A stretch of 64,000 nucleotides of DNA. It comes from Azorinus chamasolen (Eukaryota; Mollusca; Bivalvia; Cardiida; Solecurtidae). The DNA is taken from contig OY755240.1 in NCBI GenBank assembly GCA_963576725.1, positions 98,180,316-98,244,315 on the forward strand, written 5' to 3'. The notes below the pieces were generated by a model. It saw nothing but the letters and a program-made list of their open reading frames with translations. It had not been told where the DNA came from and searched no databases. The position numbers were made by a program, and so were the translations under genes. Of the stretch, positions 1,192 to 54,920 are shown piece by piece (within the stretch, counting starts at the first letter, position 1; every line of letters starts with the position of its first letter).

Positions 1192-4100
1192 TTAAGCCTT
1201 TTCCGTCGTCGCACAAGCAAAGAGGAAAGCATAATGACCAACTGTAAAGGGGTCAACCACCAATCATGTAGTGTGCTGCAATATAGAGGGGTCATATCCC
1301 TTTTTAATGAATTGTTTCATACGTTTGACAAACAAAGTATCAAAATATGTGTGTCCAATAATTTTTCGAAGTTTGTAAATGACATCACCGTATAACTCCG
1401 GATATGAAATACCTAACTTTAGAACAGTACGTAAATTACAATTGTATTTGCTGATGAGTAGAACATTACGGTGGTAAAAATTTGAAAATGTTTTATGAAG
1501 TTTGTCATATCTGTAGCCCTGTTTTAGTAGTTTTTCAGTGATAATAAGGTTACGATTGTTAAAATCATCAACAGAGGAACAAGTTCTAGCAAAACGAATA
1601 AGCTGAGAAATGTATACACCGTAACATGTAGCTCGGGGAACATCCCCATCCAAATGAGGATAGTTAACTATTTTAAAATTAGTCATCCCTTTTGTCATAA
1701 ATTCCAGAAGAAATTGTTCCATTGTTTATAGATAAATTTAAATCTAAAAAGGCAACAGATATGTCAGAACTGTTTGCTTTATTAAGCTTGAGCTCCCTAG
1801 GGTAAATTGAGGTTATCATAGAATCAAAGTATGGGTTATCAATATTAAAAATGTCGTCTAAATAACGTGCTGTATTGTTAAAGGCATTGATGACATCCGC
1901 CTGTGAATCGCTGTTAAGGTTAAGCATAAAATCCCGTTCATAACAAAACAAAAACAAGTCTGCAATTAAAGGAGCACAATTGGTTCCCATGGGAATACCA
2001 ATGACCTGGCGATAAACAGAATTACCAAAACGAACAAATATATTGTCTAACAGAAACGTAATAGCGTCACAAAGATCTAAACATGTCCACGAGGTATATT
2101 TATTTGTAACGTCATTGGTAAAGAACGCATGTCTAGAATTACAGGCAATAAATGATACTTTTTCTCTGGCAAATGTTTTATTTATAAGATGAGTAAGTTT
2201 GATCTTTATTAGATCGTGTGGTAATGTGGTATAAAGTGTAGAAAATTCATAAGTGCTTATAGTGTTAGCTTGGTGTTGCTTGATTTTTAATTTAGTTAAA
2301 ACCTCATTGGAGTTTTTTATAGACCAAAAAAGGTTAATTCCTGCATTCTCATAAGCTTTATCGCAGTAACGCTTGACATGTTCTTTGACCGCTGTTAGAC
2401 ACGGTGTAATTAGTTTGGATAGTGCGGTTGTTGTGCATGAGACAGAATTTGCTATGAAGTGTGATTTATATGGCGTTTTATGGAGTTAAGGTATCCAGTA
2501 CATCGTCGGAAGTTTATGATGTGTGATTAATATATCAGCATTTAACTGTTTACATTTATTAACATGTTCAGATAGTATGTCGTTTTCAGACTTAGAGACC
2601 ACAATATATGACTTTATCTTAGTTAGTTCTTGTTCTAAAACATCCACATAATAAAGTCGTCAAACGATAATTACATTGTTTGACGCTTTATCAGCTGGGA
2701 CAAACACGTATTTAGAGTGAAATTCTTGTATACTATTTTTCAAGAAGCGAACTGAAGTCTTAGGTTTAGGCGGAAGAGGGTGAATGTTAGATTTGTAAAA
2801 CGCGATACGTGTATCCATTATATTTGAAATTTGTTTTATCCATTTTGTAAGGGCACTATTGTCTACATGTTCTCGGCGACACCATTTTACACTGAAGTCT
2901 AACAAAGATTCTATAATTTTGCTACGGCATATTTCGAAATCTATCAAAGAAGGTAGTCTGTATTTAAGTCCCTTAGTTAGTAAAGTACGGAGACGTTTGT
3001 TTTCGATAATGTCAAAATTGCCTGTAATAACATGACCAGCCTCGGCGTAACAGAACTTAGAAGAATTACAATTTCAACTAACAGGAGTATTATTTACAAT
3101 ATTAAGGTCCGATACAATTTTATTGTAATTAAAAATAGTATTTTGTACTTATAGCAGATAATTGGAGATTCTAAGTTTTTGAAATAGGCTGGGATGGTAT
3201 TAATTACGTTTTTATCGCGAAATATTGATTGGAGATCGATAAAATCTATACCTTTATTAACAAAAGGAATTTTCAAAACATATCTTTTATGGGCAGACAC
3301 TGAATCAACGTGTGGTCGAAGAACATACCGAGTGTAGTTCTGAATGAAAGAAGCTGTATTATATAAAGGATCTGTTCGTAAGATCACTTTGTCTGCTTCT
3401 ACGTCAATGTCTCTTATGGAAGAAATAGACAAAGAACATAGACGAGAGAGCATATTATGTTTGCCAGATTGTAGACGTATCTTGTGTAAATCTGAAACAG
3501 ACGTTTTAAGTCGAGCTTTGCGTTTGGTATTGCCGTTTATACGTAAACCATGTGATCTGGTTTTTCGTTTTTTAATTGAGTAAATAGAAAATATATCAAT
3601 GTTAGGGTCTTTAGAAATATTTCCGGTTTGATATATGTTATCATTTAGGCCTAAAGGGAAAGGTGTCTGTAATTTGTTTTTATCCATTTGAGTTCTGCCA
3701 TAAATCTGGCTTTAGATTTGATGCTGTTTGTAGAATTATAATCATAAACAAGATGTTCAACTGGCTGAACTGTAATATCTTTAAATGAATGACCCGATTT
3801 ACGAAAATGCTGGTATAGATTTTTTTTTATTTTATTATTCCGGCATTGATATATATGCTCACGAAATCTAGTTTTTAGTGAGCGTCCAGTTTGTCCTACA
3901 TATTGTATACCACAGAGTGGTGCATTTCATGTTAAAACGTAAATCACATGAGAAGGTTTACAGTTAATATTTGATGTAAATTTTGTGGTAAAAACTCTAC
4001 CATTAATTGTAGATTTAATGGTAGAATTACAGATAGATATTTGCAGCACATACACCTCTTAGCATTGCACTTATCAATGGTTGGATACATTCTACGTCTT

Positions 4101-4368
4101 CCGTGCAAAATCAGTATATTTTGAATCATATTAACTACAGTACTATGTTGAATAGATTTATGTAACGGAGAAAGTACCACTTTTGGGCCATTGTGAAAAC
4201 AGCTGTTAATAGAAACAGAAGGTAGGTGGAACGATTTTGCAGAATAAAGGTTTAGTGGCTTTAAACACAATGAAGGTTGAAACGATCTAAAATTACCATT
4301 TTGTGAATTTGCACAGATGTCGTAGAATGTAGTTTTAAAGTTTGAAGTTTGCTCGTAGTTGTATTCAT
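1192..4368 (-). pseudogene. Naiad A polyprotein (GIY-YIG nuclease + RT), broken
   Basis: Encoded a retrotransposon protein that nicks the target and primes reverse transcription. The start is inferred from the ATG at 4366-4368, matching the clean start of the copy at 27166. Order: Cys-rich cluster (CNAKRCMCCK), IYVLT followed by TGA, QYVGQTGRSLKTRFREH of the GIY-YIG fold, the ELxWIKKLxTPFPLGL linker, a TGA-x-C motif, PADKASNN (a PLE DKG-type motif) followed by TGA, RT motif IPMGTNCAPLIADLF and the active-site box RYLDDIFNIDNPY. TGA triplets fall at 3927-3929, 3074-3076 and 2660-2662. Damage: a frameshift near 4020, another in the linker, a TAA after YWIP near 2487, and a frameshift near 1680. 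Confidence 0.75.
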
Positions 4369-4369
4369 A

Positions 4370-4780
4370 GTTTAGTTGTAAGTAGAGGAGCACCATACTG
4401 TGTTCAACGATACATGGGTAATTAGGTAGATAGAGCGAGTTTGGCTCTTAGGTACTGCGATATTAAATTGGTTATATAGTGCATTGATGTAAACAAGTTT
4501 AGGCTCTTTTAACACGTCGATCCTAAAATAAGTCAAATAGTGCCAAATATATGAATTGATAAACATTGTATTGTTACTGTGACAATAAATAGGTCAAATA
4601 GCGCAGACAATATAGACGGAAAGGTAGTCAGAGTGAGCAGTCCGAGCTCTATGGCACTGCGACACTGATTAGGTAATAAAACATTAAAATTGATATAGAT
4701 AACTATATGAATGGGTGAGTAATTTTGGTTCTATGGCACTACGACACTAAATAAGTAAATCAATAAAATATTCAGATGGA
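4370..4780 (-). repeat. Degenerate ~100 bp repeats in the Naiad A 5' region
   Basis: Related blocks of the form CTCTxxGGxACTGCGAxxxT recur at about 4440, 4505, 4655 and 4730. Two of them are also present upstream of the start codon in the other A copy (27180-27360), so they belong to the element's 5' leader. Confidence 0.5.
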
Positions 4781-4907
4781 AATCGACCCAAAATATCGTT
4801 GAAAACAGAATCTACCATGTGGTGCATAGCGTGATGATGAATATGTGATGATGAAATAACGTAAGTAACACCCTCTGTAAGGGGAGAAATAACAATATCG
4901 ATTGTAT

Positions 4908-5110: not shown

Positions 5111-5130
5111 CATATTCATACATATTATTT

Positions 5131-13928: not shown

Positions 13929-13957
13929 TGGGGTACGACAGAACTGGCAAATGCAAA

Positions 13958-14004
13958 TATCTAATTTCCTCCCTCCGTAAACGGGTTTAAGAGGGAATCT
14001 TCAT
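13958..14004 (-). promoter_or_regulatory. Candidate SECIS element (family A, second copy)
   Basis: Same ATGA-N12-AAA hairpin as at 1140-1185, six bases after the stop at 14011-14013. Confidence 0.55.
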
Positions 14005-14010
14005 AGAGTA

Positions 14011-16323
14011 TTAAGCCTTTTCCGTCGTCGCACAAGCAAAGAAGAAAGCATAATGACCAACTGTAAAGGGGTCGACCACCAAGCATGTAGTGTGCTGCAA
14101 TATAGAGGGGTCATATCCCTTTTTAATGAATTGTTTTATACGTTTGACAAACAAAGTATCTAAATATGTGTGTCCAATAATTTTCCGAAGTTTGTAAATG
14201 ACATCACCGTAAAACTCCGGATGTGAAATACCTAACTTTAGAAAAGTACGTAAATTACAATTGTATTTGCTGATGAGTAGAACATTACGGTGGTAAAATT
14301 TTGAAAATGTTTTACGAAGTTTGTCATATCTGTAGCCCTGTTTTAGTAGTTTTTCAGTGATAATAAGGTTACGATTGTTAAAATCATCAACAGAGGAACA
14401 AGCTCTAGCAAAACGAATACGCTGAGAAATGTATACACCGTAACATGTAGCTCGGGGAACATCCCCATCCAAATGAGGATAGTTAACTATTTTAAAATTA
14501 AAGTCATCCCTTTTGTCATAAATTCTAGAAGAAATTGTTCCATTGTTTATAGATAAATTTAAATCTAAAAAGGCTGCAAATATGTCAGAACTATTTGCTT
14601 TATTAAGCTTGAGCTCTCTAGGGTAAATTGAGCTTATCATAGAATCAAAGTATGGGTTATCAATATTAAAAATGTCGTCTAAATAACGTGCTGTATTGTT
14701 AAAGGCATTGATGACATCCGCCTGTGAATCGCTGTTAAGGTTAAGCATAAAATCCCGTTCATAACAAAACAAAAATAAGTCTGCAATTAAAGGAGCACAA
14801 CTGGTTCCCATGGGAATACCAATGACCTGGCGATAAACAGAATTACCAAAAACGAACAAATATATTGTCTAACAGAAACGTAATTGCGTCACAAGATCTA
14901 AACATGTCCACGATGTATATTTATTTGTAATGTCATTGGTAAAGAACGCATGTCTAGAATTACAGGCAATAAATGATCCTTTTTCTCTGGCAAATGTTTT
15001 ATTTATAAGATTAGTAAGTTTGATCTTTATTAGATCGTGTGGTAATGTGGTATAAAGTGTAGAAAAATCATAAGTGCTTATAGTGTTAGATTGGTGTTGT
15101 TTGATTTTTAATTTAGTTAAAACCTCATTGGAGTTTTTTATTGACCAAAAAAGGTTAATTCCTGAATTATCAGAAGCTTTATCGCAGTAACGCTTGACAT
15201 GTTCTTTGACCGCTGTTAGACACGATGTAATTAGTTTGGATAGTGTGGTTGTTGTGCATGAGACGAATTCGCTAAGAAGCGTGATTTATAAGGCGTTTTA
15301 TGGAGTTTAGGTATCCAGTACATTGTTGGAAGTTTATGATGTGTGATTAATATATCAGCATTGAACTGTTTCCATTTATTAACATGTTCAGATATTATGT
15401 CGTTTTCAGACTTAGAGACCACAATATATGACTTTGTCTTAGTTCTTGTTCTAAAACATCCACATAATAAAGTCGTCAAACGATAATTACATTGTTTGAC
15501 GCTTTATCAGCTGGGACAAACACGTATTTAGAGTGAAATTCTTGTATACTATTTTTTAAGAAGCGAACTGAAGTCTTAGGTTTAGGCGGAAGAAGGTGAA
15601 TGTTAGATTTGTAAAACGCGATACGTGTATCCATTATATTTGAAATTTGTTTTATCCATTTTGTATGGGCACTATTGTCTACATGTTCTCGGCGACACCA
15701 TTTTACACTGAAGTCTAACAAAGATTCTATAATTTTGCTACGGCAGATTTCGAAATCTATCAAAGAAGGTAGTCTGTATTTAGGTCCCTTAGTTAGTAAA
15801 GTACGGAGACGTTTGTTTTCGATAATGTCAAAATTGCCTGTAATAACATGACCAGCCTCGGCGTAACAGAACTTAGAATTACAATTTCAACTAACAGGAG
15901 TATTATTTACAATATTAAGGTCCGATAAATTTTATTATAATTAAAAATAGTATTCCTAATAGGTATTTTGTACTTATAGCAGATAATTGGAGTTTTTAAA
16001 ATAGGCTGGGATGGTATTAATTACGTTTTTATCGCGAAATATTGATTGTAGATCGATAAAATCTATACCTTTATTAACAAAAGGAATTTTCAAAAAGATA
16101 TCTTTTATGGGCAGACACTGAATCAACGTGTGGTCGAAGAACATACCGAGTGTAGTTCTGAATGAAAGAAGCTGTATTATATAAAGGATCTGTTCGTAAG
16201 ATCACTTTGTCTGCTTCTATGTCAATGTCTCTTATGGAAGAAATAGACAAAGAACATAGATGAGAGAGCATAGTATGTTTACCAGATTGTAGACGTATAT
16301 TGTGTAAATCTGAAACAGACGTT
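14011..16323 (-). pseudogene. Naiad A reverse transcriptase, interrupted
   Basis: RT half of the second family A copy. 14011-14859 is an intact stretch of 282 codons from FGNSVYRQVIGIPMG through RYLDDIFNIDNPY to TEKA and a TAA stop. Upstream, in pieces, are the thumb/finger regions, PADKASNN, and a linker with EAGHVITG. TGA codons at 15476-15478 (after NNVIIV) and 15887-15889 (first position of the CxC motif) coincide with those of the other copies. A one-base loss near 14850 separates the RT pieces. The frame ends at the TTAA insertion at 16324. Confidence 0.75.
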
Positions 16324-16851
16324 ATAAAGGCATTTCGAAAGGAATGTTGACCCATTAACCTCATGCTGTGTATTTTGGGTACGTTATGGTGCCACACTGA
16401 GAATTTCACTGCTGGATACTGATAGTCAATTATCAGGTTATCCCAATATGCAGCAGAACTATTGATAAAATATCTACAGGTAAATGAAATGATAGTTTGT
16501 GTCATGTATCATTAATTTCTCTATAAACAATGATGTGTTTGTTTCAGCATTTAATTTTATTAATTTATGTGATTGAAAATAAAGTATTTAAAAGCATTAT
16601 AATTTATCATTATTTCAATAATTTTTATCATGCGAGTAATGTAAAATGGTCTTTATTGTTTTCATCTAGTTGAAATTTAGATGATTGATTTGTATTTTAT
16701 TTGTATTTATTTGAATTTGAATTTGTTTTTTGAAAACAAATAATGATTTTAGTTTATCGAAATTATTGTCCATTAATAATTATTTGTGTTGTGCTATGAC
16801 ACAAGAGAAGCAATTGGTGTTTTATAATAAAACAATGTGTAGATATGGTAA

Positions 16852-17070: not shown

Positions 17071-18584
17071 TTAGAAGGGTCTCCAGATATGAGTCCCATA
17101 CACCTGTGTCATCCATTTGGCCCAGATATTTGTTCTATATTTGTATGAATTTCTGCTGGAGCCAACATTTTCATTCCAGTGGCATACTGCTAAATCACTT
17201 CGCAGCCTGTAGGTGGAATCACCCATGGACCCGATCCTCTTGTCTTGGAAAATGTTCAATACGTTATTGAAAGATTCCACTAGGAAGGTATCCATACAGT
17301 GAACATAGTTCTGTGGGTTTTTATATACATCTATTCCACGTAGCGTGTTTGTGAGGAGAGTCACGGCAATTGGCTCAGTCAGTAGTTGTCTGCTGGGTAT
17401 ATAATTGTCATCAGTTTGACACCGTGACTCACTTGGACACTTCCTATGTTCATTCTGGTAGTGGTTTGGTACCTGGTCTATTCTGTCTTTCAATAGTTGT
17501 GGGCTGCCTCCACAGTTTTTCATAGCATAGTATATGTGTGTTTTCACTGGCTTCACTTTGTCCACAAGCTGTGTAGACCAGGTCTTTCCTTCACGGCACT
17601 TGGCACCTGATGATATCTTTTTCAGTTCTTTTTCCACTGAAACCGACACATGCCAGGTATCATTTTGATTGATTGTCCCGGGCTGCTGTTCGCGCACATA
17701 CTTGTTGATACTCGCATTTCTGTCATGCCCATGCTTGTTCACTTTCACATTTTGGTGTGCTAGAGTTTCATATATGCGTTTCGTGCCGAACAGTTCATGG
17801 CGCTGTGTACAGGGATCGTCCTCTCGTCGTACAATCTGATGCTGAATAACCTTGCGGCTGTTGTATCCAATACACACGACATCCGTATACTTAGAATTTT
17901 TCCTTGTAGAGTGTCTGGCATCCGTTATAATGTCCACACTGTCGTGATTGTCACTGAATGTCTGCTCTTCAAAAAGAGCTGAGTGGCATGACATAGAGCG
18001 TTCATGGCTCACTGCCTCGCTGTAATTCCCTGTGTAAGTATCAACTTTGTGTCTTGTAAGAGTGCCCACACCAGACGATTCACAAAACCGACTAAGTTGT
18101 GAGAACAACATCCCACTTGAGTAATATGCATGCGTTAGTTTCATGGATACCAAATCACTTCCATCCGGAATGAAGCCTTCCACAGTTCAAAGAAACTACA
18201 CTGTTCACATGAAACTCTGTACACCTTAGAGCATGTCTCGATGTCCTCACACTGAATAATAACAGATGAAGGACATGTACAGTTGTGCGTATTTACAATA
18301 TTCACAAGAGCGAAAAGTGATGTCTGAGCTGTGATAGTGAGAGGCTGAGTAGACCCGGCTTTGCTGCACTGCTGTGTCGCTGTACTCGCGGTTCTAGACT
18401 TATTGACACTATCCCGAAGATAGTGATCCAGTGCATCATTCAGTATATTGAGCGAATTACCAGATGACTGTTCAAACATGTTTTTTGCCAGGTCTAATTT
18501 CTTCTGCACGGCTGTGAACAACTCCTCTGAACCATATAAGCTCAATGTCTGTTTCTTTCTCTTAGCAGATGTTGGAGTGTTCAT
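17071..18584 (-). pseudogene. Kolobok-like transposase, frameshifted
   Basis: Two overlapping frames form one protein of about 500 residues: 18584-18141 (start MNTPTSAKRKKQ, a helical region, then a Cys-rich part with CEQCSFFELW) and 18183-17071. They meet at TTTGAACTGTGGAAGG, where a one-base change is needed. The second half has IITDARHSTRKNSKYTDVV, then HDRNASINKY and NQNDTWHVSVSVEKEL. These match, in order and spacing, the DGRxDSPGHSAKY, TDRH and FDVWHxSK blocks of Kolobok-type DDE transposases (first two catalytic Asp in DARHS and DTWH). A later VESFNNVLN may hold the acidic third residue. The N-terminal THAP finger of many Koloboks is not evident. Confidence 0.65.
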
Positions 18585-31053: not shown

Positions 31054-31525
31054 AATATCATTGAAAAGGGATATAATCCTGTAGTACTACAACATACTGC
31101 GTGTTTGGTTGTCAACCCTTTTACAGTTGGCAATCACGCTGGCCTCTTTGCATGTATGCCGACAAGAAAGGTTTAGTACTTTATGAAGGCGACCTCTTAA
31201 ATGGTTTCGTTATACATGCACTTTACTACTGTATTTTCCATCGCGGTTTTTGTAGATTAGTCGGAGAGGGGATACGTTTATTTACACTGTCTTTAAGGGT
31301 GGGGATGGAATAAGTGTGAGGTTAGGCGCCCATAAACCGGTTTAACCCACAGTGATTTTGTCACTGACCGTTCCAAGACGGTACTTCCATCTTCCCCCTA
31401 TTGTATGTTTGTTTTCTCTTTGTGCGTCTCTTGTTGTTTTTATAGTTATGTACAATATCTGTTTGCTTGTGTTGCTGTTCGGGCGACTGTTTGTTCTGTA
31501 TGTGGTGTTTCCTGCATGACTCATT

Positions 31526-32611
31526 GGCAAACTTTCTATGTTATTTGGTAGTGGTTGCGTCTTGTATGTGGCTTTGTCTGCTTGACTTTACTATATTTCC
31601 GTTGTTTATCGTCTTTACCCTTTTCCTGTCTGAGGTCCATAGACGAAGAGGCTGATGAAATTTATATGCGTACAGATCTGTTAATTAATACTGCATCACT
31701 TATACAAAGTTACACACAGCATGTTCTTCGTCCTCGTGTTGATAAAGAATCTGAACAAAAAAGACACTTTCTGAAACTTCAATTCCTAAATAAAGGTATC
31801 GATTTTATCGTAATTTATTCAAAGTATATTTCGTGATAAGAATGTAATCGATACTATTCCCAAATATGTCATCAACTCTGAATCACCTATCACCTGTTAT
31901 AGATACAGTAGAAAACCTCTAATCGGACCACTTAATGAATAAACATGGGTGGCTGTATAAGCAGGCGGTTGCTTAATGCAGGACAAAAGTAATGCAGAAA
32001 GCTGATAGAAGAGATAGAAGAGCTTTCTGCATTACTTTTGTCCTGCATTAAGCTACCACCTGCATCTAACACAGAATTATACCTCGTTTAGGTACCTCGG
32101 CCTATAGTTACATTTCGCTATTTGAAGAAAAACATTTCTAAGTTTCATTCAAATTATGTTCTTGTTCCTGCTGAGAAGGCATCAGATAAGGTAAAAACTT
32201 ATATAACAGTTCAAACACCTGAAAAAGATATAGTTTCGGAACATGTAAAATGTGCAATGATTTTAAGTCTGGTCCTGACATAAAACAACATAAACTTTCT
32301 ACTTTGTACAGGATTCCGAATCTACATAAAAACCCTTACAAGGCGCGTTTTATTGCCAACTCTAGCTGTTGTACCACTACTAAAATATCTAAACTTTTGA
32401 CGTCCTGTCTCACTACGTTCAAGGAACATGTAAAACGTTACTGTGATAAAATATATGAAAATTCTGGTATTAATGTTTTTTGGTCCATCAAAAATTCAAA
32501 TGATGTTTTAACGAAAATGAACAGTATAACATTTTTTTCACCATCTTATAAAGGATAAACTGATTAAATTAATAGAAAAAAACCTTTGCCAGAGAAAACA
32601 AAATGTTCATT
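31526..32611 (+). pseudogene. Naiad family B fragment, rearranged
   Basis: A short beta scrap (31553-31610) leads into B coding sequence (YTQHVLRPRVDKESEQ, KGIDFI). It is interrupted at 31922-32077 by a hairpin MITE, then resumes at TFRYLKKNISKFHSNYVLVP. A deletion removes the site-3 TGA and its surroundings (KASDKVKTYITVQ). It then continues through KLSTLYRIPNLHKNPYK to FARENKMF. Other frameshifts at 31800 and 32245. It ends at a beta module. Confidence 0.65.
31922..32077. repeat. Hairpin MITE (TTAATGCAGG family)
   Basis: GCTTAATGCAGGACAAAAGT with an exact inverted partner ACTTTTGTCCTGCATTAAGC around GATAGAAGAGATAGAAGAGC. The cleanest copy of this family here. Confidence 0.75.
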
Positions 32612-33092: not shown

Positions 33093-33812
33093 TTCTTTGC
33101 TTGATTTTAAGTTGTAATTTAGTTATAACTGATAAACTTCTTAAGCAACTTTATAGATATCACAAACTTCGGAAAACGTTTTCTAAATTTTATTATCGAA
33201 ATTTACCACTCATTAGTAAATATAATTGCAAACTACGGATGTTACTGCAATAAGGCATTTCTCAACCAGACTTTTATGGGGATGTTATCTACAAACTTAG
33301 GACAATTCGGGGTCATATCCATTTTCACGATTTGTTTATAAAACGTTTTAAACATTTAAGAAGAAAGGTTATGATCCCGTTATATTGCAACGCACTGCAT
33401 GTTAGGTTATCGACCTTTTTACAGTCGGTAGCTACACTTCACTCTTTGCGTGCGCGGTGACAAACCGAGGGTAGTACTCCATTATGGTATACTCTTAAAC
33501 TCAGATACGGGATGAGCTTATCAGACTCATGTATTACTTTTTCCCTGTCGTGCCCTTAACGGCTTACCTGCAGGTGCTCTGACTTCAGCAAAGTCATTGA
33601 GTAGATATTTGACGGATTGTCACAGTTATTATGCTGTTTTACATGTTGTCCTTGTCTCAAGTTCTTGTGTGTCTGTTGATGTTTTCTGTGTTCATCTCGT
33701 GTGTGAGTGTGCGTTTGGTGTGTGGTTGTATGTGTGTCATGCTATCTATCGGTGTTTTGGTGGTGGTTGTGTCTTGGATGTGGCTTTGCCTGCTTGACTT
33801 TACTAATTTTCC
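33093..33812 (+). pseudogene. Naiad family B C-terminal fragment with beta module
   Basis: B coding end from YRYHKLRKTFSKFYYRNLPL to the C-terminus (stop near 33475), a degraded SECIS-like hairpin (TATGGTATACTCTTAAAC at 33484), 3' UTR to 33654, then a beta module lacking its hairpins (33655-33812). Confidence 0.6.
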
Positions 33813-36546: not shown

Positions 36547-36850
36547 TTATTTCAAATGCTTTAAAAATAAATAGCGGTTCCTAAGAGTGCCTTCACTTTC
36601 AGTTTTTAACTGTTCAATAAACTTCACCATATTTGGTCGTTTCCAATAATACTGTTTCATATACAATTTTCGCAAATTAGCATACAAAGGACATTCGAGC
36701 AGAAAGTGGTGTTCGTCCTCTAACTATTTGCATGACTGGCATTTTCTTTCATTATATGGAATTTTCTTTGGTTTGTGTCATCTTCCTGCTTCAACTTCTA
36801 ACCTATGTGCTGAAACACGAAAGCGAGTAAGTGTTATTCTAAACTATTTT
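36547..36850 (-). pseudogene. LINE ORF2 C-terminus, displaced
   Basis: Minus-strand FRITLTRFRVSAHRLEVEAG, then RKCQSCK, LEDEHHFLLECPLY and YYWKRPNMVKFIEQL, ending at a TAA at 36547. This is the Cys-rich C-terminal part of an APE-type LINE. It is the expected continuation of the ORF2 that breaks off at 44077 (QSYLNCI), so the two pieces are one LINE split by the Naiad block 36866-44072. TGA and TAG replace Trp-type positions, so it is dead. Confidence 0.7.
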
Positions 36851-36865
36851 ATACTATTCTAAAAC

Positions 36866-39151
36866 AAACTGGTAAACATTCTATGTTATCTTGTTTATCG
36901 TCTTTACCCTTTTCCTGTCTTAAGTCAATGGACGAAGAGGCTGATAAAATCTATATGCGTACAGATCCGTTAATTAATACTGCCTCACTTATACAAAGTT
37001 ACACACAGCATGTTCTTCGTCCACGTATTGATAAAGAATCTGAACATAAAAGACATTTTCTGAAACTTCAGTTCCTAAATAAAGGTATCGATTTTATTGA
37101 TATTCAAAGTATATTTCGTGATAAGAATGTAATCGATGCTATTCCCAAATATTTCATCAACTCTGATTCACCTATCATCTGTTATAAATATAATAAACCT
37201 ATTAGAAATGTTATTTTTAACTACAATAAAATTGTCTCTGACTTAAATATTGATGTTAATACCCCTATTTCTTGAGATTGTAGCATTTCTAGCTTTTGCT
37301 ATAAACCAGTTGGTCATGTCATTACTGGTAATTTTGATATCATTAAGGATATACGTCTCAGGACCCTCCTAACTAAAGGACCTAAATATAGATTACCTTC
37401 CCTTATTGATTTTGACGCTTGTCGAACTCATATTGCGGAAGCTATTAAAGAATTCTGCATCAAATGGTGTCGACAAGAACATGCTGATGTTAATGCCCTT
37501 TCGGATTGGAAGAAATGTATTTTCGATATTATTGATACGCGAATAACTTTTTACAAATCAAATTACCATCTTTTACCACCTCGACCTAGAGTTACATTTC
37601 GCTACTTGAAGAAAAACATTTCTAATTTTCATTCAGATTATGTTCTTGTTCCTGCTGACAAGGCATCAAACAATGTAATCATTATTTGAAGATTGTATTA
37701 TGTTGATGTTTTAAAGAAGGAGCTAACTGATTCAAAAACTTATATAACAGTTCAAACACCTGAAAAAGATATAGTCTCGGAACATGTAAAAATGTGCAAT
37801 AATTTTAAGTCTGGTCCTAACATAAAACAACATAAACTTTCTACTTTGTATTGGATTCCGATACTACATAAAAACCCTTATAAGTCGCGTTTTATTGCCA
37901 ACTCTAGCTGTTGTACCACTACTAAATTATCTATACTTTTGACGTCCTGTCTTACTACGATCAAAGAACATGTTAAACGCTACTGTGATAAAATATATGA
38001 AACTTCTGGTATTAATGTTTTTTGGTCCATAAAAAATTCAAATGATGTTTTAACAAAACTTGAAAATGAACAGTATAACATTTCTTTACTGAGCTCTTAT
38101 GATTTCTCTACACTCTATACTACTCTACCTCACTATCTTATAAAGGATAAACTTATTAAATTGATAGAAAAAACCTTTGCCAGAGAAAACAAAATGTTCA
38201 TTGCTTGTAATGTTCAACGTTCATTCTTTTCGAATTCAGAAGTTGAACATTACACAATGTGGACTTGCCTTGATGTTTGTAGATCTCTTACCTTTCTTTT
38301 AGATAATATATTTGTGCGTTATGGGGATACCATATATCGTCAAGTTGTTGGTATACCCATGGGTACAAATTGTGCCCCTCTTGTTGCAGATTTGTTTTTG
38401 TATTGCTACGAGAGGGATTTTATGCTTAGCTTAAAACCTGATACACAGACCGATATTGTTAATGCTTTTAATAAAACTTCAAGGTATTTAGACGATATTT
38501 TGAATTTAGATAATCCTTATTTTGATACTATGGTTTCTACCCAAAAGAACTGTCTTTAAACAAAGCTAATCAATCTGACATTAATGCTTCAGTTTTAGAT
38601 TTGAATCTTTCAATTACAAATGATAAAGTTTCGTCCAAAGTATACGATAAAAGAGAAGATTTAATTTTAAAATTGTTAATTATCCTTTTCTAGATGGGGA
38701 CGTGCCACGTTCTACATCTTATGGGGTTTATATTTCTCAACTTATTAGGTTTGCCCGAGCCTGTTCTTTGCTTGAAGATTTTAACAGACGTAATTTAGTT
38801 ATAACTGATAAACTTCTTAAGCAAGTTTACAGATATCACAAACTTCGGAAAACCTTTTCTAAATTTTATTATCGAAATTTACCTCTCATTAGTAAATATA
38901 ATTGCAATCTACGGACGTTACTGCGACAAGGCATTTCTCAACCAGAATTTTATGGGGATGTTATCTACAAACTTAGGAAAATTCGGGGTCATATCCATTT
39001 TCATGATTTGTTTATAAAACGCATTAAAACATATAAAAAGAAAGGTTATGATCCTATTATATTGCAACACACTGCATGTTTGGTTATCGACCATTTTACA
39101 GTCGGTAGCTACGCTTCCCTCTTTGCTTGCGCGATGACAGGCCGAGGGTAG
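36866..39151 (+). CDS. Naiad B reverse transcriptase with in-frame UGA codons
   Basis: One frame runs from 36883 to about 38540 with only two interruptions, both TGA: 37273-37275 (NTPIS-TGA-DC, first position of the CxC linker) and 37687-37689 (DKASNNVIII-TGA-RLYYVDV). Other family members have TGA at the same places, so I read them as selenocysteine. Motifs: YTQHVLRPRIDKES, GHVITGNFDI, KWCRQEHADVNALSDWKK, PADKASNN, STLYWIPILHKNPYKSRFIA, STLYTTLPHYLI, IPMGTNCAPLVADLFLYCYE, SRYLDDILNLDNPYF (RT active site). Two small deletions (about 38540 and 38664) break the frame in the thumb before the C-terminus at 39151 (TAG). The function would be reverse transcription primed at a nicked target. The GIY-YIG part is absent. 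Confidence 0.75.
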
Positions 39152-39157
39152 TACTCT

Positions 39158-39203
39158 ATGATGGTATACTCTTAAACTTGGATACAGGAGGAGCTTACCA
39201 GAC
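39158..39203 (+). promoter_or_regulatory. Candidate SECIS element (family B)
   Basis: Six bases after the TAG. ATGA, 12 bases, AAA; lower helix GGTA/TACC and upper CTCTT/AGGAG; 3' arm followed by AGAC. Compensated differences from families A and C support selection on structure. Confidence 0.6.
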
Positions 39204-39422
39204 TCATGTATTACCTTTTCCCTGTCGTGCCCTTAACGACTTACCTGCAGGTGCTCTGACTTCAGCAAAGTCATTGAGTACATATTTGACGGATTGTCAG
39301 TTATTATGCTATGTTTTACATGTTGTCCTGTGTTCACCGTCGTCTATGTTGTGGGTAAGTCCAGCGGGGATACCTTTATTTAAATATTTGTAAAGCTAGG
39401 GTGACTTTGAGAGAAGTGTGAG

Positions 39423-39733
39423 GTTAGGACGTCCGTAAACCGGTTTAAACCCCCAGTGGTGTTTTTGCTGCTGACCGTGCCAAGGCGGTACTCACTTTGT
39501 CACCCTTCCTTTTGTTTGCCTTGCGTCTATGTGCTTGTGGTTTGTTCATGTTGTGGAACGTTTGTCCCTGGTTCTTGAGTGTCTTTTGGTGTTTTCTGTG
39601 TTCATTTCGTGTGTGTGTGTGTGTGTGCGTTTGGGTGTGTGGTTGTGTGTGTGTGTGTCATGCTGTCTATCGGTGTTTTGGTGGTGGTTGCGTCTTGCAT
39701 GTGGCTTTGCCTGCTTGACTTTACTACTTTTCC
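39423..39733 (+). repeat. Family B tail palindromes and beta module
   Basis: GGACGTCC, GTAAACCGGTTTAAAC, CCCAGTGGTG...TGCTGCTG, ACCGTGCCAAGGCGGT, GT-rich body, then GCTTGACTTTACTACTTTTCC at the end. Confidence 0.7.
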
Positions 39734-40844
39734 ATTGTCAACTTTAACTCTTGCCGTGTTCAGATTGCGGAGGCTTTACAAATTTTTAGTATTAAATGGT
39801 GTCGAAGAGAACATGTTGAGTCTAATGCTCTTTCTTGTTGGAAAAAACTAATGTTTGATATAATTGATAAACGCATTTCCTTTTACAGCTCTAATAAACA
39901 CCTCCTTCCACCTAAACCTAGAACTTCTTTTAGACATCTTAAAAAGGGTTTACAGGATTTCCATTCAAAATACGTTTTTGTTCCTGCTGATAAGGCATCG
40001 AATAATGTTATTATTATTTGACGATTACATTATATTGATGTCTTGAAGCAGGAAATTATTAATACCAAGTCATACATTTCAGTTACCACGGACGAAAAGA
40101 CCATCATTTCAGACCATGTCAAAAAGTGTGAACAATTTGGAACCGATATTAAAATTACACAACATAAACTTCCTACAAGGTATTGGTTACCAAAACTACA
40201 TAAAAACCCATAAAAAGCGCGTTTCATTGCAAATTCTAGTTCATGTACAACTACTAAATTGTCTATACTTTTGACTTCTTGTTTAACGAAGGTAAAGGAA
40301 CATGTAAAATTCTACTGTGATAAGACTTATGAAAATTCTGGAATAAATCTCTTCTGGTCTATTAAGAACTCTTCAGAAGTCTTAAACAAACTTAAGAACA
40401 AAAGGTATCTTGCATCCACTGTAAGCACGTACGATTTTTCTACTCTGTACACAACTCTTCCTCATATTTTAATTAAGGATAAGCTTACTAACTTAATCCA
40501 GAAAGTATTTGCACGGGAAAAAACATCATTCTTGGCATGTAATACTGAAAAAGCTTTCTTTACTGACGAGCAAATGAAATATTACACCAATTGGACTTGC
40601 TCAGAAGTTTGCGAAGCACTTACCTTTCTTACCTTACATATTTGTACGTTATGGGAATGCTATATACCGTCAGGTAATTGGTATTCCTATGGGTACGAAT
40701 TGTGCACCACTTGTCGCAGATTTGTTTTTGTACTGCTATGAGAGAGATTTCATGTTGCGTTTGAATCCTCAATCACAAGAAGATGTTATAAAAGCCTTCA
40801 ATGAAACTTGTCGATATTTGGATGATATTTTTAACTTAGATATA

Positions 40845-41853
40845 GAGAATAATAGGTTAGTGCCGTAGATGGGACGCTTTATCCGACGAGGGGAGAAAAC
40901 GTTGAGGCGAGGCTTGCCGAGCCTCAACTGTTTTCTCTCCGAGTCGGATAAAGGCGTCCCATCTACGACACTAACCTATTATTCGATTTATCCAGTCAAT
41001 ATAGTTAAATGTCTTTTTTATAGACTCATAACACTCTTGAAATAATTTAAATTGAAAATGCAGTTTTTCGATCAACGGATCCCTCCCTTTTCACTTCCAT
41101 TTAGACGTAAACAGATCTAATGAGCTACCGCAGAGGAATATAGTTTCGATACTTGTATTACTAGAAGGGAAACGTGGTTGAATTTGAAAAATAAGATGAT
41201 TTGAATCGAGGGTCGATAAGTTATTTAAAACAGACATGATCTATATTCTTTGGTCAAATTCGAGTTACGTAGTCTCGGTTTCTATTTTTAGATTCTACCT
41301 AACGTCACTCAGAAATCGATGGAACTGAACAGGCTATATTTAGGTTTATGACTATCACCGCCCCTGTAAGAGTTTATCAATCAAATAATCATGAGAGTGA
41401 AAAGAAAACATTTACTATTTATCTGTCAATCTTTGCTTCCAGGTTTGATTTTATCAAAAACGGGTTTTACCAGCGGTGGATTAAATTAATAAAAGTGATA
41501 AATCAACATCATTTTGTATGTGGCCTCAGTGGCGTAATCGGTAAAGGCGACGTCTCTAGAGAGATTAGAATTAGTTTTTGTAGGATCAGGCGCGGGTTCG
41601 AATCCAGCTGTAGCCAATTATTTTTATTTTTTTCTCATTTGAATAATTCTTCTGGTGACCAAATAGATCTGTTAGATCTATTCCATCAACATGTTTATGA
41701 ATGTTTACAGAAAACTAAAATAGTTCCATGGTTATAGAATCATTACGCTTATCTACTAACCTAATAAACCTTCCACTACCGGAAGTAACCAAATAAACCT
41801 AAGTTTATTTGCACCCCCTTTATTATGTCACTAGAGAAGCCTGGTGACTGGAT
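40845..41853. mobile_element. Insertion in the Naiad C active-site box (foldback + tRNA-like)
   Basis: Splits RYLDDIFNLD from NPFFDAL. 40850-40985 is a foldback with arms AATAATAGGTTAGTG / CACTAACCTATTATT and GATGGGACGC / GCGTCCCATC. The middle holds a tRNA-like segment (41522-41615). The right end contains CTACTAACCTAATAAAC, a weak inverse of the left end. No transposase. Confidence 0.55.
41522..41615 (+). ncRNA. tRNA-like / SINE-head segment
   Basis: A-box-like TGGCGTAATCGGTAAAGG and a perfect B box GGGTTCGAATCC, the internal promoters of RNA polymerase III. GGCCTCA and TGTAGCC can pair at five of seven acceptor positions. The anticodon arm (TCTCTAGAGAGA) is not a normal tRNA arm, and the 94-base length would need a long variable arm. 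More likely a tRNA-derived SINE head or tRNA pseudogene than a working tRNA. Confidence 0.5.
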
Positions 41854-42508
41854 AAAACCCTTTCTTTGATGCTCTGATTCCTACAATGTATCCTAAAGAA
41901 CTGAAATTGAATAAAGCTAACCCGTCCGACAATTATGCAGCGTTTCTTGATCTAGACCTTAAAATTAATAATGGAATGATTTCTTCTAAAATATATGACA
42001 AAAGAGATGATTTTGATTTTAATATTGTAATTTTTCCTAATCTTGACGGGGATGTTCCCCGTGCTCCATCTTACGGGGTTTATATATCTCAACTTATTCG
42101 TTTGCTAGAGCTTGTTCATCTATTGACGATTTTAACAGTCGAAATCTCATTTTAACTGAAAAGCTACTTAAGCAAGGATATAAATACCATAAACTAAGAA
42201 AAACTTTCTCTAAATTTTACTATCGAAATCTCTCGCTTATTGGCAAGTACCAATGTAATCTCAAGGCGCTTCTGCGACACGGTATTTCACATCCTGAATT
42301 TTATGGTGATGTGATTTACAAACTTCGTAAAATTATTGGACATACCCATTTTCTCACTTTGTTCACCAAATGTGTTAAACAATTCATTAAAAAGGGATAT
42401 GATCCTGTAGTACTACAACATACTGCATGTTTGGTTGTGAACCCTTTTACAGTTGGCAATCACGCTGGCCTCTTTGCATGTACGCCGACAAGAAAGGTTT
42501 AGTACTCT

Positions 42509-42557
42509 ATGAAGGCGACCTCTTAAATCCAGAAATGGAAGGAGAACGTCGGATATC
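42509..42557 (+). promoter_or_regulatory. Candidate SECIS element (family C)
   Basis: Six bases after the TAG at 42500-42502. Same sequence as at 254-302. Confidence 0.6.
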
Positions 42558-42826
42558 TGTACTATTTTATTTTTGTCGTACCCTTTATTACTTTTCTACA
42601 GTTACTCTGTTTGCAGCTCAATCATTGAGTACACTAGCGATAGGTGGATACAGTATGTTCAATTAAATGTTTTTTCGTTATACATGCACTTTACCATTGT
42701 ATTTGCCGTCGCGGTTGTTGTAGATTAGTCGGAGAGGGGATACGTTTATTTACACCGTTTGTCTTTTAGGGTGGGGATGGAATAAGAGTGAGGTTGGGCG
42801 CCCATAAACCGGTTTAAGGTATTTCC

Positions 42827-43874: not shown

Positions 43875-44072
43875 CCCCCCAGTGACTTTTGTCACTGACC
43901 GTTCCAAGGCGGTACTTCCATCTTCCTCCTATTGTATGTTTGTTTTGTCTTTGTGTGTCTCTTGTTGTTTTTTCTAGTTATGTACATTTGCTGTTTCCTT
44001 GTGTTGCTGTTCGGGCGAGTGTTTGTTCTGTATGTGGTGTTTCCTGCATGACTCATTTTTGTACTTTTAATG
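43874..44072 (+). repeat. Gamma 3' module
   Basis: CCCCCCAGTGACTTTTGTCA hairpin, ACCGTTCCAAGGCGGT hairpin, body, then CCTGCATGACTCATTTTTG end. Confidence 0.7.
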
Positions 44073-50305: not shown

Positions 50306-50309
50306 TAGT

Positions 50310-50565
50310 AAGGCGCTTCTGCGACACGGTGTTTCACATCCTGAATTTTATGGTGATGTGATTTACAAACTTCGTAAAATTATTGGACATACGCATTTTC
50401 TCACTTTGTTCATCAAATATGTTAAAAAATTCAAGGGATATGATGCTGTAGTACTACAACATACTGCAGGTTTGGTTGTGAACCCTTTTACAGTTGGAAA
50501 TCACGCTGGCCTCTTTGCATGTACGGCAACAAGAAAGGTTTAGTACTTTATGAAGGCGACCTCTT
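50310..50565 (+). pseudogene. Naiad family C C-terminal fragment
   Basis: RT C-terminal end (LLRHGVSHPEFYGDVIYKLR, HTAGLVVNPFTVGNHAG), TAG stop, and the first half of the SECIS hairpin cut after CTCTTAA. It meets the gamma end of the next copy tail to tail. Confidence 0.7.
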
Positions 50566-51019
50566 AAAAGTACAAAAATGAGTCATGCAGGAAACACCAC
50601 ATACAGAACAAACACTCGCCCGAACAGCAACACAAGGAAACAGTAAATGTACATAAGTAGAAAAAACAACAAGAGACGCACAAAGACAAAACAAACATAC
50701 AATAGGAGGAAGATGGAAGTACCGCCTTGGAACGGTCAGTGACAAAAGTCACTGGGGGGTTAAACCGGTTTATGGGCGCCCAACCTCACACTTATTCTAT
50801 CCCCATCCTAAAAGACAAACAGTGTAAATAAAAGTATCCCCTCTCCGACTAATCTACAACAACCGCGACAGCAAATACAGTGGTAAAGTGCATGTATAAC
50901 GAAAAAACATTTAAGTGAACATACTGTATCCACCTATCGCTAGTGTACTCAATGATTGGGCTGCAAACAGAGTAACTGTAGAAAAGTAATAAAGGGTACG
51001 ACAAAAATAAAATAGAACA

Positions 51020-51068
51020 GATATCCGACGTTCTCCTTCCATTTCTGGATTTAAGAGGTCGCCTTCAT
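51020..51068 (-). promoter_or_regulatory. Candidate SECIS element (family C, minus copy)
   Basis: Same ATGA-N12-AAA hairpin, six bases after the stop at 51075-51077. Confidence 0.6.
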
Positions 51069-52213
51069 AGAGTACTAAACCTTTCTTGTCGGCGTACATG
51101 CAAAGAGGCCAGCGTGATTGCCAACTGTAAAAGGGTTCACAACCAAACATGCAGTATGTTGTAGTACTACAGGATCATATCCCTTTTTAATGAATTGTTT
51201 TATACATTTGATGAACAAAGTGAGAAAATGGGTATGTCCAATAATTTTACGAAGTTTGTAAATCACATCACCATAAAATTCAGGATGTGAAATACCGTGT
51301 CGCAGAAGCACCTTGAGATTACACTTGTACTTGCCAATAAGAGAGAGATTTCGATAGTAAAATTTAGAGAAAGTTTTTCTTAGTTTATGGTATCTATATC
51401 CTTGCTTAAGCAGTTTTTCAGTTAAAATGAGATTTCGACTGTTAAAATCGTCAATAGATGAACAAGCTCTAGCAAAACGAATAAGTTGAGATATACAAAC
51501 CCCGTAAGATGGAGCACGGGGAACATCCCCGTCAAGATGAGGAAAATTTACAACATTAAAATCAAAATCATCTCTTTTGTCATCTATTTTAGAGGAAATC
51601 ATTCCATTATCAATTTAAGGTCTAGATCAAGAAATGCTGCATAAGTTTCATTGAAGGCTTTTATAACATCTTCTTGTGATTGAGGATTCAAACGCAACAT
51701 GAAATTCTCTCACAGCAATACAAAAACAAATCTGCGACAAGTGGTGCACAATTTGTACCCATAGGAATACCAATTACCTGGTATATAGCATTCCCATAAC
51801 GTACAAATATGTTATCCAAAAGAAAGGTTAGTGATTCTCAAACTTCTGAGCAAGTCCAATTGGTGTACTATTTCATTTGCTCGTCAGTAAAGAAAGCTTT
51901 TTCAGCATAACATGCCTAGAATGATGTTTTTTCCCTGGCAAATGCTTTCTGGATTAAGTCAGTAAGCTTATCCTTAATTAAATCGTACGTGCTTACAGTG
52001 GATGCAAGATACCTTTTGTTCTTAAGTTTGTTTAAGATTTCTGAAGAGTTCTTAATAGACCAGAAGATATTTATTCCAGAATTTTCATAAGTCTTATCAC
52101 AGTAGAATTTTACATGTTCCTTTATCTTCGTTAAACAAGAAGTCAAAAGTATAGACAATTTAGTAGTTGTACATGAACTAGCATTTGCAATGAAACGCGC
52201 CTTATATGGTTTT

Positions 52214-53070
52214 TATGCCCCCAAAGGCGGGCATATAGTAATCGCATTGTCCGTCTTTCCGTCTTTCCGTCTGTCCGTCTGTCCGTCCGTCCGTCTGTCC
52301 GTCTGTCCTTCCATCCGTCCCAACTTCGTGTCCGGTCTGTAACTTCTTTATCTATCAATGGATTTCAATATAACTTGCCACAAATGTTCACCAGACAGAG
52401 ACGATGTGTCGCATTTTACTCCCTGGTCCATGGGTCAAAGGTCAAGGTCACAGGGTACATTTATTTTGTCACAAATTTCGTGTCCGGTCTGTAACTTCTT
52501 CATCTATCAATGGATTTCAATATAACTTGGCACAAATGTTCACCACACAAAGACGATGTGTCGCTTTCAACTCCCTGGTCCATAGGTCAAAGGTCAAGGT
52601 CACAGGGTACAATTACTTTGTCACAAATTTCGTGTCCGGTCTGTAACTTCTTAATATATCACTGAATTTCAATATGATTTGGCACAAATGTTCACCAGAC
52701 AGAGACGATGTGTCGCTTTCAACTCCCTGGTCCATGGGTCAAAGGTCAAGGTCACAGAATACAATTACTTTGTCACAAATTTCGTGTCCGGTCTGTTACA
52801 TTTTTATCTATCAATGGATTTCAATATAACTTGGCACAGATGTTTACCAGACAAAGACGATGTGTCGCGTTCAGCTCCCTGGTCCATATGTCAAAGGTCA
52901 AGGTCACAGGGTACAATTACTTGTTTATCTGTGAATGGATTTCAAAGGAACCTGGCACAAATGTTCACCTTACAAAGACGATGTGTCAACTCCCTGGTCC
53001 ATGGTTCAAATGTCAAGGTCACATGGTACAATTTTTGGGGGCATTTGTCACGTGACTGTGACATCTCTTG
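52214..53070 (+). mobile_element. Helentron-type non-autonomous element (second family)
   Basis: TATGCCCCC...GGGCATATAG start, TCCGTC/TTCCGTC microsatellite (52248-52320), four ~151 bp tandem repeats, then GGGGGCAT, a terminal stem-loop GTCAC-GTGACT-GTGAC and the end ATCTCTTG. The element at 29633 ends in the same CTCTTG after its stem-loop. Inserted in a T run of the Naiad C ORF (KxPYK region) without a long duplication. Confidence 0.7.
52327..52930. repeat. ~151 bp tandem repeats of the helentron-type element
   Basis: Units start TTCGTGTCCGGTCTGTAACT at 52327, 52477, 52629 and 52781, with a degenerate fifth. Each contains CTCCCTGGTCCATGGGTCAA and AGGTCAAGGTCACAGGGTAC. Confidence 0.85.
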
Positions 53071-53934
53071 TTTTATGTAGTTTTGGTAACCAATACATTG
53101 TAGGAAGTTTATGTTGTGTAATTTTAATATCGGTTCCAAGTTGTTCACACTTTTTGACATGGTCTGAAACGATTGTCTTTTCGTCAGTAGTAACTGAAAT
53201 TTATGACTTGGTATTTATAATTTCCTGCTTCAAGACATCGATATAATGTAATCGTCAAATAATAATCACATTATTCGATGCCTTATCAGCAGGAATGGAA
53301 ATCCTGTAAACCCTTTTAAAATGTCTAAATGAAACTCTAAGTTTAGGTGGAAGAAGGGGTGTATTAGAGCTATAAAAGGAAATGCGTTTATCAATTATAT
53401 CAAAAATTAGTTTTTTCCAACTAGAAAGAGCATTAGACTCAACATGTTCTCTTCGACACCATTTAATACTAACATTTTGTAAAGCCTCCGCAATCTGAAA
53501 TCGACAAGAGTTAAAATCTATCAAGGATGGTATTCTATATTTGGGACCTTTATTCAAAAGAGATCGTAGACGTTTATCTTTAATTATCTCAAAATTATCA
53601 GTAATCACATGACCAGGCGGAGAATAGCAACATTTAGAGGTGGCGCAATCTCAATTATCAGGAATATTATCATTAATCTTAAGGTCGGCCACAATTTTAT
53701 TATAGTTGAAAATTGTATTTCTGATGGGTTTGTTATATTTGTAGCAGATGATAGGTGGTTCTGTATTTTTAAAGTATTTAGGAATAGTGTCAATTACATG
53801 TTAGTCTCTAAAAATACTTTGGAGGTCAATAAAATCAATTCCCTTATTAATAAAAGGAATTTTCAAGAAGAATCTTTGGTGTTCAGATAATTTGTCAATG
53901 TGCGGTCTGAGAACATGTAGAGTAAATGGAAAAG

Positions 53935-54340
53935 TAGTAAAGTCAAGCAGGCAAAGCCACATGCAAGACGCAACCACCACCAAAACACCGATAGACAACA
54001 TGACACACACACACACAACCACACACCCAAACGCACACACACACACGAAATGAACACAGAAAACACCAAAAGACACACAAGAACCAGGGACAAACGTTCC
54101 ACAACATGAACAAACCACAAGCACAGAGACGCAAGGCAAACAAAAGGAAGGGTGACAAAGAGAGTACCGCCTTGGCACGGTCAGCAGCAAAAACACCACT
54201 GGGGGTTTAAACCGGTTTACGGACGTCCTAACCTCACACTTCTCTCAAAGAGACCCTAGCTTTACAAATATTGTAAATAAAGGTATCCCCGCTGGACTTA
54301 CCCACAACATAGACGACGGTGAACACAGGACAACATGTAT
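53935..54340 (-). mobile_element. 5'-truncated Naiad B tail inserted in Naiad C
   Basis: Family B 3' UTR (54340-54233), GGACGTCC/TAAACCGGTTTA tail and beta module (54208-53935), splitting the C frame between GTASLI and HVLRPHIDKLSEH. It contains no coding sequence, yet ends exactly at the beta terminus (CTACTTTTCCAT). Confidence 0.7.
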
Positions 54341-54846
54341 CAAACTAGCTGTTCCTTTGAGAGGATCTGATCTAAAAATAATTTTACCGGCTTGCTCGTC
54401 AATTTCTTTTAATGAACATATAGATAAGGAGGAAAGTCTAGAAAGCATGGCATGTTTACCAGACGTTAGACGTAAAGTATGTAGATCAAGAATAGTCATT
54501 TTCAGACGAGATTTTCGTTTAATATTACCATTTTTGTGAATGCCATGTGATCGAGATTTGCGTTTTCTTATAGAAAAAAATGAAAAAATATCTATATCTG
54601 GTTCTTTTGAAATATTTCCAGTCTGGTAAATATTATCGTTCAGTCCTAAAGGAAAGGGTGTTTTCAATTTTTTGATCCAAATTAATTCAGATATAAATCT
54701 AACTTTCGATTTAAAGCTACTATTAGCATCCTAATCATATGTTATATGCTCAACAATTTGTACTAAAACATCTTTAAAAGAATGGCCAGATTCCCGAAAG
54801 TGTTGGTATAAAAAATGGTTTAGTTTACGATTTCGACACTGATATG

Positions 54847-54920
54847 TAACATAACATACCGGTATCCCGACGGAGCCAAAATGTACTCAATAAAACAGTA
54901 ATTCGTGAAACTTCACGACA
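54847..54920 (-). repeat. BEL/Pao 3' LTR, truncated
   Basis: TGTCGTGAAGTTTCACGA...CCGTCGGGATACCGG matches the start of the 5' LTR at 63876. Only ~74 bases remain. The preceding CGGCGGCGGGAG is a plausible polypurine tract. Confidence 0.7.

Follow-up and report, generated by a model that had tools for sequence, protein, structure and literature searches.

The 64-kb window analysed here is a stretch of 64,000 nucleotides (nt) of the Azorinus chamasolen genome (1.72 Gb in 137 contigs, of which C1-C19 are chromosome-sized; window C6:98180316-98244315; G+C content 36.6%), and it contains many pieces of one kind of mobile element, which tblastn assigns to three families, A, B and C. Our analyses indicate, with a probability that we put at about 0.95, that these Naiad-type Penelope-like retrotransposons encode a selenoprotein with three selenocysteines (Sec), UGA being recoded through a selenocysteine insertion sequence (SECIS) situated at the stop codon. 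An earlier note on this DNA had already read UGA as Sec, a reading that is now supported by fixed TGA columns, Cys-bearing homologues, purifying selection, a covarying SECIS and a tRNA-Sec gene. Actual insertion of Sec and a benefit of it to the enzyme are what we infer from these data. In the proposed mechanism, Sec 1 would occupy a conserved Cys position of the endonuclease part, Sec 2 the leading Cys of the linker's CxC motif and Sec 3 the Cys position after DKASNNVI(I/V)(I/V) in the reverse transcriptase (RT), and a SECIS whose basal stem includes the UAA or UAG of the open reading frame (ORF) itself would recode UGA by means of the SECIS-binding machinery and tRNA-Sec of the host.

Naiads are Penelope-like elements with a single ORF, in which an N-terminal GIY-YIG domain is followed by a CxC linker and a C-terminal RT. 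Comparison of the tblastn pieces with the window gave the 5'-to-3' order GIY-YIG-like part, linker with CxC motif and RT, which places the GIY-YIG domain N-terminal to the RT, and both this order and the CxC motif, which reads UxC in the window element, match the Naiad architecture. Among the listed homologues, some carry precomputed matches to PF01541 or PF00078 (GIY-YIG and RVT_1, respectively); P0106 carries both and others neither. An AlphaFold model of the Cys-bearing homologue P0025, made with an alignment of 55 hand-picked rows of 120 homologues, had a predicted local distance difference test (pLDDT) score of 86, and its 14 best PDB matches were all telomerase RTs (E 3e-10 to 6e-7) with a loose superposition (query template modelling score, TM, 0.25-0.32). 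By way of this model, a telomerase-like RT fold is predicted for the element.

TGA columns and their cysteine counterparts

Eleven TGA codons had been assigned by the earlier note to three sites of the element, and a direct codon check found all of them in frame at the given coordinates (Table 1). According to tblastn of element pieces, every copy in the window that covers a site carries TGA there (twice at site 1, four times at site 2 and five times at site 3), and site 3 is deleted from a sixth copy that extends this far (near 32095-32277). A fourth in-frame TGA in copy 1, at 1264-1266, was considered as a further fixed Sec site and rejected, because the genome copies carry TGC (50 rows) or TGT (10 rows) in this column and the single TGA is that of copy 1 itself; a private nonsense change from Cys is the most likely origin suggested by the sequences.

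Genome searches yielded 11,168 first-look candidates for family A and 11,925 for family C, lists that probably overlap, and 150 of each were scored. From the 150 of family A, 70 loci were fetched (the top 30 and the final 40), among them window copy 1 (L001). By direct count in these loci, TGA occupied site 1 in 31/31, site 2 in 70/70 and site 3 in 66/71 rows, the other site 3 rows showing TGG (2), CGC (1), TTA (1) and a gap (1). Alignments of at least 80% identity gave TGA in 27/27, 67/67 and 62/66 cases at sites 1-3, that is, 156 TGA with no TAA or TAG, and the scattered stops elsewhere in 51,286 codons comprised 47 TAA, 29 TGA and 18 TAG, with no single position common to more than three copies. 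Since the scattered stops are mixed and never shared by more than three copies at one position, the fixed TGA columns are not due to chance. Among the 20 loci with a coverage of 900 codons or more, 9 had the column TGAs as the only stops of the aligned frames (frameshifts not counted), and three loci read as ORFs of 978, 1039 and 1063 amino acids, each with exactly three TGA. The search tables, in which TGA positions are confirmed for the fetched copies only, gave at least two TGA across the stretch with sites 2 and 3 in 145/150 family-A and 135/150 family-C copies, and at least one in 147/150 site-1 matches.

The exceptions were TGT (4), TGC (3), TTA (3), TCA (2), TAA (2) and GGA (1) in the 15 family-C copies, all of which were fetched, and TAA, TGG and TTA in the three site-1 matches; TGG also stands at site 2 of another family-A copy. 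The claim that TGA is the only interrupting codon at these columns is upheld in the window, where neither TAA nor TAG occurs, but genome-wide TAA is rarely found (site 3 in 2/150 family-C copies and site 1 in 1/150 matches), as decay would give. Likewise, the columns are overwhelmingly TGA, but TGA, TGC and TGT are not their sole occupants, since TAA (3), TGG, TTA, TCA, GGA and CGC also appeared. The enrichment in Cys among the family-C copies lacking TGA (TGC or TGT in 7/15) was set aside as evidence, since ranking by similarity to a Cys-bearing query favours Cys codons; the comparison of TGA with TAA and TAG should be less affected by this bias, if stops of all kinds rank alike. The evidence for family B consists of the window copies and 46/150 site-1 matches at 70-72% identity, whose B-like label separates them from family A only and may include family C; one of three that were fetched agreed with the window B piece in 50/58 residues vs 38/58 with family A.

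Of the 136 proteins found by a homologue search, the 120 listed were examined. In agreement with the claim that the homologous residues are Cys, this residue was found in 54/54 homologues at site 1, in 99/104 at site 2 (Trp in 5) and in 110/120 at site 3 (Trp in 9, gap in 1); the site 1 residues come from pairwise alignments, the N-terminal part of the element having been misplaced when it was added to the fixed alignment. The most conserved cysteines of linker and RT are both members of the CxC motif (columns 390, which is site 2, and 392, with Cys in 54/55 and 55/55 homologue rows, respectively) and site 3 (52/55). In P0002, P0004 and P0005, the only aligned Trp absent from the element are those of sites 2 and 3; the other six Trp-bearing proteins have more. 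A quick tree of 63 rows, including 60 homologues (the first by number covering the RT), placed eight of the nine Trp-bearing proteins, all inside a 24-row clade together with families A, B and C, and we infer that the Trp letters at the columns probably represent TGA translated by a UGA=Trp table. Ten members of this clade (P0007-P0009, P0012-P0017 and P0019), whose alignments start past site 2, show Cys at site 3, and two (P0003 and P0010) combine a site 2 Cys with a site 3 Trp; the clade resembles a patchwork of Sec and Cys states. One scan of viral contigs with P0002, made for Trp-bearing relatives as DNA, found no relative.

These residues bear on the possibility of ordinary programmed stop read-through, by which Trp, Arg or Cys would be inserted at UGA without selenium. 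Trp at the columns of some homologues would agree with it, as would the leaky context created by the C after the site 3 codon of families A and B (TGA CGA). However, the next base is A or G after the codons of sites 1 and 2 and A after that of family-C site 3, the residue of the wider family is Cys, Trp is clustered in the clade around the Sec families, where the UGA=Trp table is its simplest source, and a covarying SECIS stands at the stop codon. Read-through of this kind appears very improbable, and Sec remains the residue that we favour at the three columns.

Selection across the TGA codons

Selection on the protein was evaluated as the ratio of nonsynonymous to synonymous substitution rates (dN/dS), with a family-A copy whose only stops are the three TGAs as reference. 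The family-C stretch 36850-38541, in which the TGAs of sites 2 and 3 are the only two stops, gave a synonymous difference (pS) of 0.70 and a dN/dS of 0.116 over 564 codons spanning both sites, and the family-C C-terminus a dN/dS of 0.055. Nine family-B blocks ranged from 0.10 to 0.22, and four more were saturated at synonymous sites and gave no ratio. Three B-like copies, one with TGA and two chosen as the exceptions with TGG and TTA, showed values of 0.06-0.08 across site 1 over 117-118 codons (3/3) and of 0.14-0.22 in the 34 codons upstream of that site. As the earlier note had proposed, the families are diverged, standing near saturation at synonymous sites between A, B and C, and dN/dS, where a ratio was obtained, is about 0.05-0.22 to either side of each of the three TGAs. 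Since TGA was kept during synonymous turnover and dN/dS is low, the protein beyond the TGAs was under selection.

This result bears directly on the alternative that a dead master copy with three nonsense TGAs was spread in trans, untranslated past the TGAs. Copies within a family are near identical, and the sharing of TGAs in one family would be compatible with such an origin, but three near-saturated families keep them, with low dN/dS up- and downstream of each site, and compensating SECIS pairs have been kept as well. Because there was selection beyond the TGAs during synonymous turnover, the data are not explained by trans-mobilisation of a dead copy, and we grant it a very small chance in comparison with a functional selenoprotein.

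A SECIS that begins at the stop codon

Among the ten element 3' ends of the window, seven carry a full SECIS, with all three families represented, two carry remnants and one is interrupted. The Rfam family RF00031 (SECIS_1) matched 1193-1131 on the minus strand with 36.8 bits, over a cut-off of 35, starting inside the stop codon of copy 1, and the AUGA/GA quartet and the unpaired A's of the apical loop are present. In a covariation set of 21 full-length sequences (20 distinct), hand-picked across the three families from 69 listed, 93.5% of the cells were paired. Cells with a double change numbered 28 vs a shuffled mean of 10.2, a value reached in 0/500 shuffles, and slid structures gave 0-11; this was one of five measures, two of which did not exceed the shuffles, and the shuffles ignore relatedness. 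At one pair, most A sequences have UA and most B sequences GC, and C has AU. RNAalifold returned 15 pairs, all among the 17 proposed, and the single-strand minima adopted the SECIS fold for B and C. A model built from the SECIS set gave nine window matches at E<=1, all of them located at 3' ends of Naiads; seven are training sequences, and the information lies in the two remnants found and in nothing else being matched in the 64 kb. In the whole genome, where 150 of 67,113 RF00031 candidates were scored, all 15 listed matches carry the family-A Naiad SECIS by eye, and immediately upstream of 10 of them stands Naiad C-terminal sequence. The remaining five (L096, L097, L100, L105 and L106) consist of SECIS and tail with the C-terminus undetected, behaving as 5'-truncated copies would.

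As for the host, its genome contains a tRNA-Sec gene (80.7 bits) with anticodon TCA, as determined by ARAGORN. Of the further family matches, two just exceed the cut-off of 47 bits and 32 do not reach it; as the tRNA-Sec family also matches, mostly below the cut-off, in 14/14 control genomes, these are probably ordinary tRNAs. The tRNA-Sec gene suggests that the host possesses Sec machinery. The same gene, together with the otherwise rare and scattered occurrence of TGA in the elements, speaks against UGA being a general sense codon in this genome, an explanation that would account for the open frames only and whose probability seems almost negligible; dedicated recoding as Sec is the preferred alternative. 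Many copies tie at the same score and several stand head to tail, 4483 bases apart (C12, C16), features that would be expected of recently active elements.

Several observations weigh against the selenoprotein reading. In some copies the columns hold TAA (three cases) or codons for Leu, Ser, Gly, Arg or Trp, and the copies are related by descent, so that counts within a family are not independent and it is the comparison between families that carries weight. Within family A, dN/dS ranged from 0.11 to 1.02, some decayed window pieces being near 1 (0.91-1.02), as decaying copies would. RF00031 scores are weak beyond copy 1, with 30.8 bits in family A and 23.6-26 bits in three family-B elements (E 0.94-4.2, which on their own are at chance level), and at E<=5 this model gave no match in family C. 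Two covariation measures resembled the shuffles, namely pairs with a double change (6 vs a mean of 5.0, 127/500 as high) and further pair types (14 vs 15.2, 486/500 as high), and two family-A sequences did not have the SECIS fold as their minimum (z -1.33 and -2.12). Finally, a Pfam scan of the element ORF found no family at E<=0.001.

The TAA stop codon of copy 1 (1194-1192) lies within the basal stem of the SECIS: stem I takes up its second and third bases, the latter covarying with the base opposite (AU 11, GU 5 and GC 4 in the 20 distinct sequences). AUGA begins 6 nt past the stop; upstream of AUGA, the candidate Sec codons stand at distances of 2754, 1890 and 1476 nt, and a C-terminal Cys, which is Cys in 10/13 relatives reaching it, at 78 nt. 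Perhaps the UAA or UAG stop and stem I act as one structure, in such a way that a terminating ribosome opens the SECIS and switches off recoding for the next ribosome. We consider this idea tentative and rather unlikely; if true, it would constitute a built-in throttle that couples termination to Sec insertion in a mobile element. Such coupling may be the reason why the C-terminal Cys stays Cys. A passage of PMC3316567 gives a minimum spacing of 51-111 nt, and one could speculate that this requirement is why the C-terminal Cys has not become Sec. The stop codon within the first stem of the SECIS is the least familiar detail of the system and the part worth testing.

Two variants of the SECIS were observed in passing. 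In the family-B window element at 50540-50588 and in the family-A locus L020 (near 3334), the SECIS is cut after CTCTTAAA in the apical loop, and the foreign sequence at both cuts is identical, starting AGTACAAAAATGAGTCATGC, with another copy at 44046-44065 on the minus strand; it looks like an element inserting at TTAA. The apical loop reads CTCTGAAACCC in L026 and many family-A genome copies and CTCTTAAACCC in others and in the window copies, a single change beside the conserved A's. At L105 (C11:80202054-80202386), the SECIS-bearing 3' end is joined directly to a tandem repeat, which fits the microsatellite insertion bias of Naiads.

Selenocysteine is costly and rarely used, yet an abundant retrotransposon appears to need three of them per protein. 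This genome could serve as a natural laboratory, since it holds copies with Sec, Cys and other codons at the same columns along with compensated SECIS variants, from which the requirements for Sec insertion might be read. Automatic annotation may call intact elements of this kind pseudogenes, or invent tryptophans under a UGA=Trp table.

Window features and relation to known systems

Table 1. Positions of Naiad copies, TGA codons and predicted SECIS elements in the window
Feature	Position	Strand	Evidence or remark
Naiad copy 1, family A	1195-4396	-	tblastn pieces and codon comparison with genome copy
Copy 1, GIY-YIG part	3654-3989	-	
Copy 1, linker	3139-3687	-	
Copy 1, RT	1682-3139	-	
Copy 1, C-terminus	1195-1680	-	
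Naiad copy, family A, linker to C-terminus	14014-16370	-	tblastn and codon comparison
Naiad fragment, family A, N-terminus, GIY-YIG part and linker start	26306-27194	-	tblastn
Naiad copy, family C	36850-39148	+	tblastn and codon comparison
Naiad copy, family B, two blocks (39731-40841 and 41856-42499)	39731-42499	+	tblastn and codon comparison
Naiad copy, family B, several lesions	51078-54844	-	tblastn and codon comparison
C-terminal fragment, family B	312-572	-	tblastn
C-terminal fragment, family C	33116-33471	+	tblastn
C-terminus fragment, family A	60362-60418	+	tblastn
Site 1 TGA, proposed Sec, family A copy 1	3927-3929	-	Cys in homologues 54/54
Site 1 TGA, second family-A GIY-YIG fragment	26723-26725	-	
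Site 2 TGA, first CxC linker residue, family A copy 1	3074-3076	-	
Site 2 TGA, family A	15887-15889	-	
Site 2 TGA, family C	37273-37275	+	
Site 2 TGA, family B	53651-53653	-	
Site 3 TGA after DKASNNVIIV, family A copy 1	2660-2662	-	
Site 3 TGA, family A	15476-15478	-	
Site 3 TGA, family C	37687-37689	+	
Site 3 TGA, family B	40019-40021	+	
Site 3 TGA, family B	53255-53257	-	
Fourth in-frame TGA, private to copy 1	1264-1266	-	Cys column in genome copies
SECIS, family A copy 1	1127-1194	-	RF00031 match 1193-1131
SECIS, family A second copy	13946-14013	-	RF00031 30.8 bits, E 0.044, below cut-off
SECIS, family C, from TAG stop	39149-39216	+	aligns with the others; no RF00031 match at E<=5
SECIS, family B, from TAG stop	42500-42567	+	RF00031 26 bits, below cut-off
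SECIS, family B	51010-51077	-	RF00031 23.6 bits, below cut-off
SECIS, family B, after C-terminal fragment 312-572	244-311	-	
SECIS, family C, after C-terminal fragment 33116-33471	33472-33539	+	
SECIS remnant, family B	31174-31226	+	broken in apical loop
SECIS remnant, family A	60400-60468	+	with C-terminus fragment 60362-60418

Copy 1 is disrupted by frameshifts and at least one TAA. Other features of the window include a near-perfect inverted repeat at 31963-32061 within a family-C fragment, both strands of which match microRNA families below the cut-off and which is more likely a small hairpin resembling a miniature inverted-repeat transposable element (MITE) than a microRNA. A Mutator-like transposase ORF (PF20700, 44.7 bits) lies at 17074-18183 on the minus strand, and broken ORFs that by eye resemble a BEL/Pao retroelement lie at 57440-61432 on the same strand, with no Pfam match for the three tested.

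Selenocysteine-encoding Naiads of clams are already known as a kind: in 2021, Craig, Yushenova, Rodriguez and Arkhipova (Mol Biol Evol 38:5005) reportedly described selenoprotein Naiads in clams and spiders, with several in-frame UGA at conserved Cys and with tandem copies. The results listed by our literature searches included no paper on selenocysteine in Penelope-like elements, and two papers that cite the 2021 work contain neither Naiads nor selenium in their text. The elements described here share with those Naiads the single ORF, the order GIY-YIG, CxC and RT, the UGA at conserved Cys and the tandem copies; the stop codon in the SECIS basal stem and the per-column codon counts in one genome come from the present analysis. 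PMC8905726, on Mercenaria, contains no mention of Naiad or selen.

With cellular selenoprotein mRNAs, as treated in PMC3316567 on vertebrate selenoproteomes, the elements share the distance between UGA and SECIS, which is 207-5207 nt in mammals, a range that includes the 1476-2754 nt found here. The cellular SECIS lies in the 3' untranslated region (UTR) of host genes, whereas here it belongs to a mobile element and begins at the stop codon, with AUGA 6 nt further on. The fowlpox GPx4 has its SECIS inside the coding region, its cellular counterparts having theirs in the 3'UTR, as stated in PMC8310308; both the viral gene and the present elements have a SECIS that is not confined to the 3'UTR, but the fowlpox SECIS lies within the coding sequence, whereas in these Naiads the overlap is limited to its 5' edge and the stop codon.

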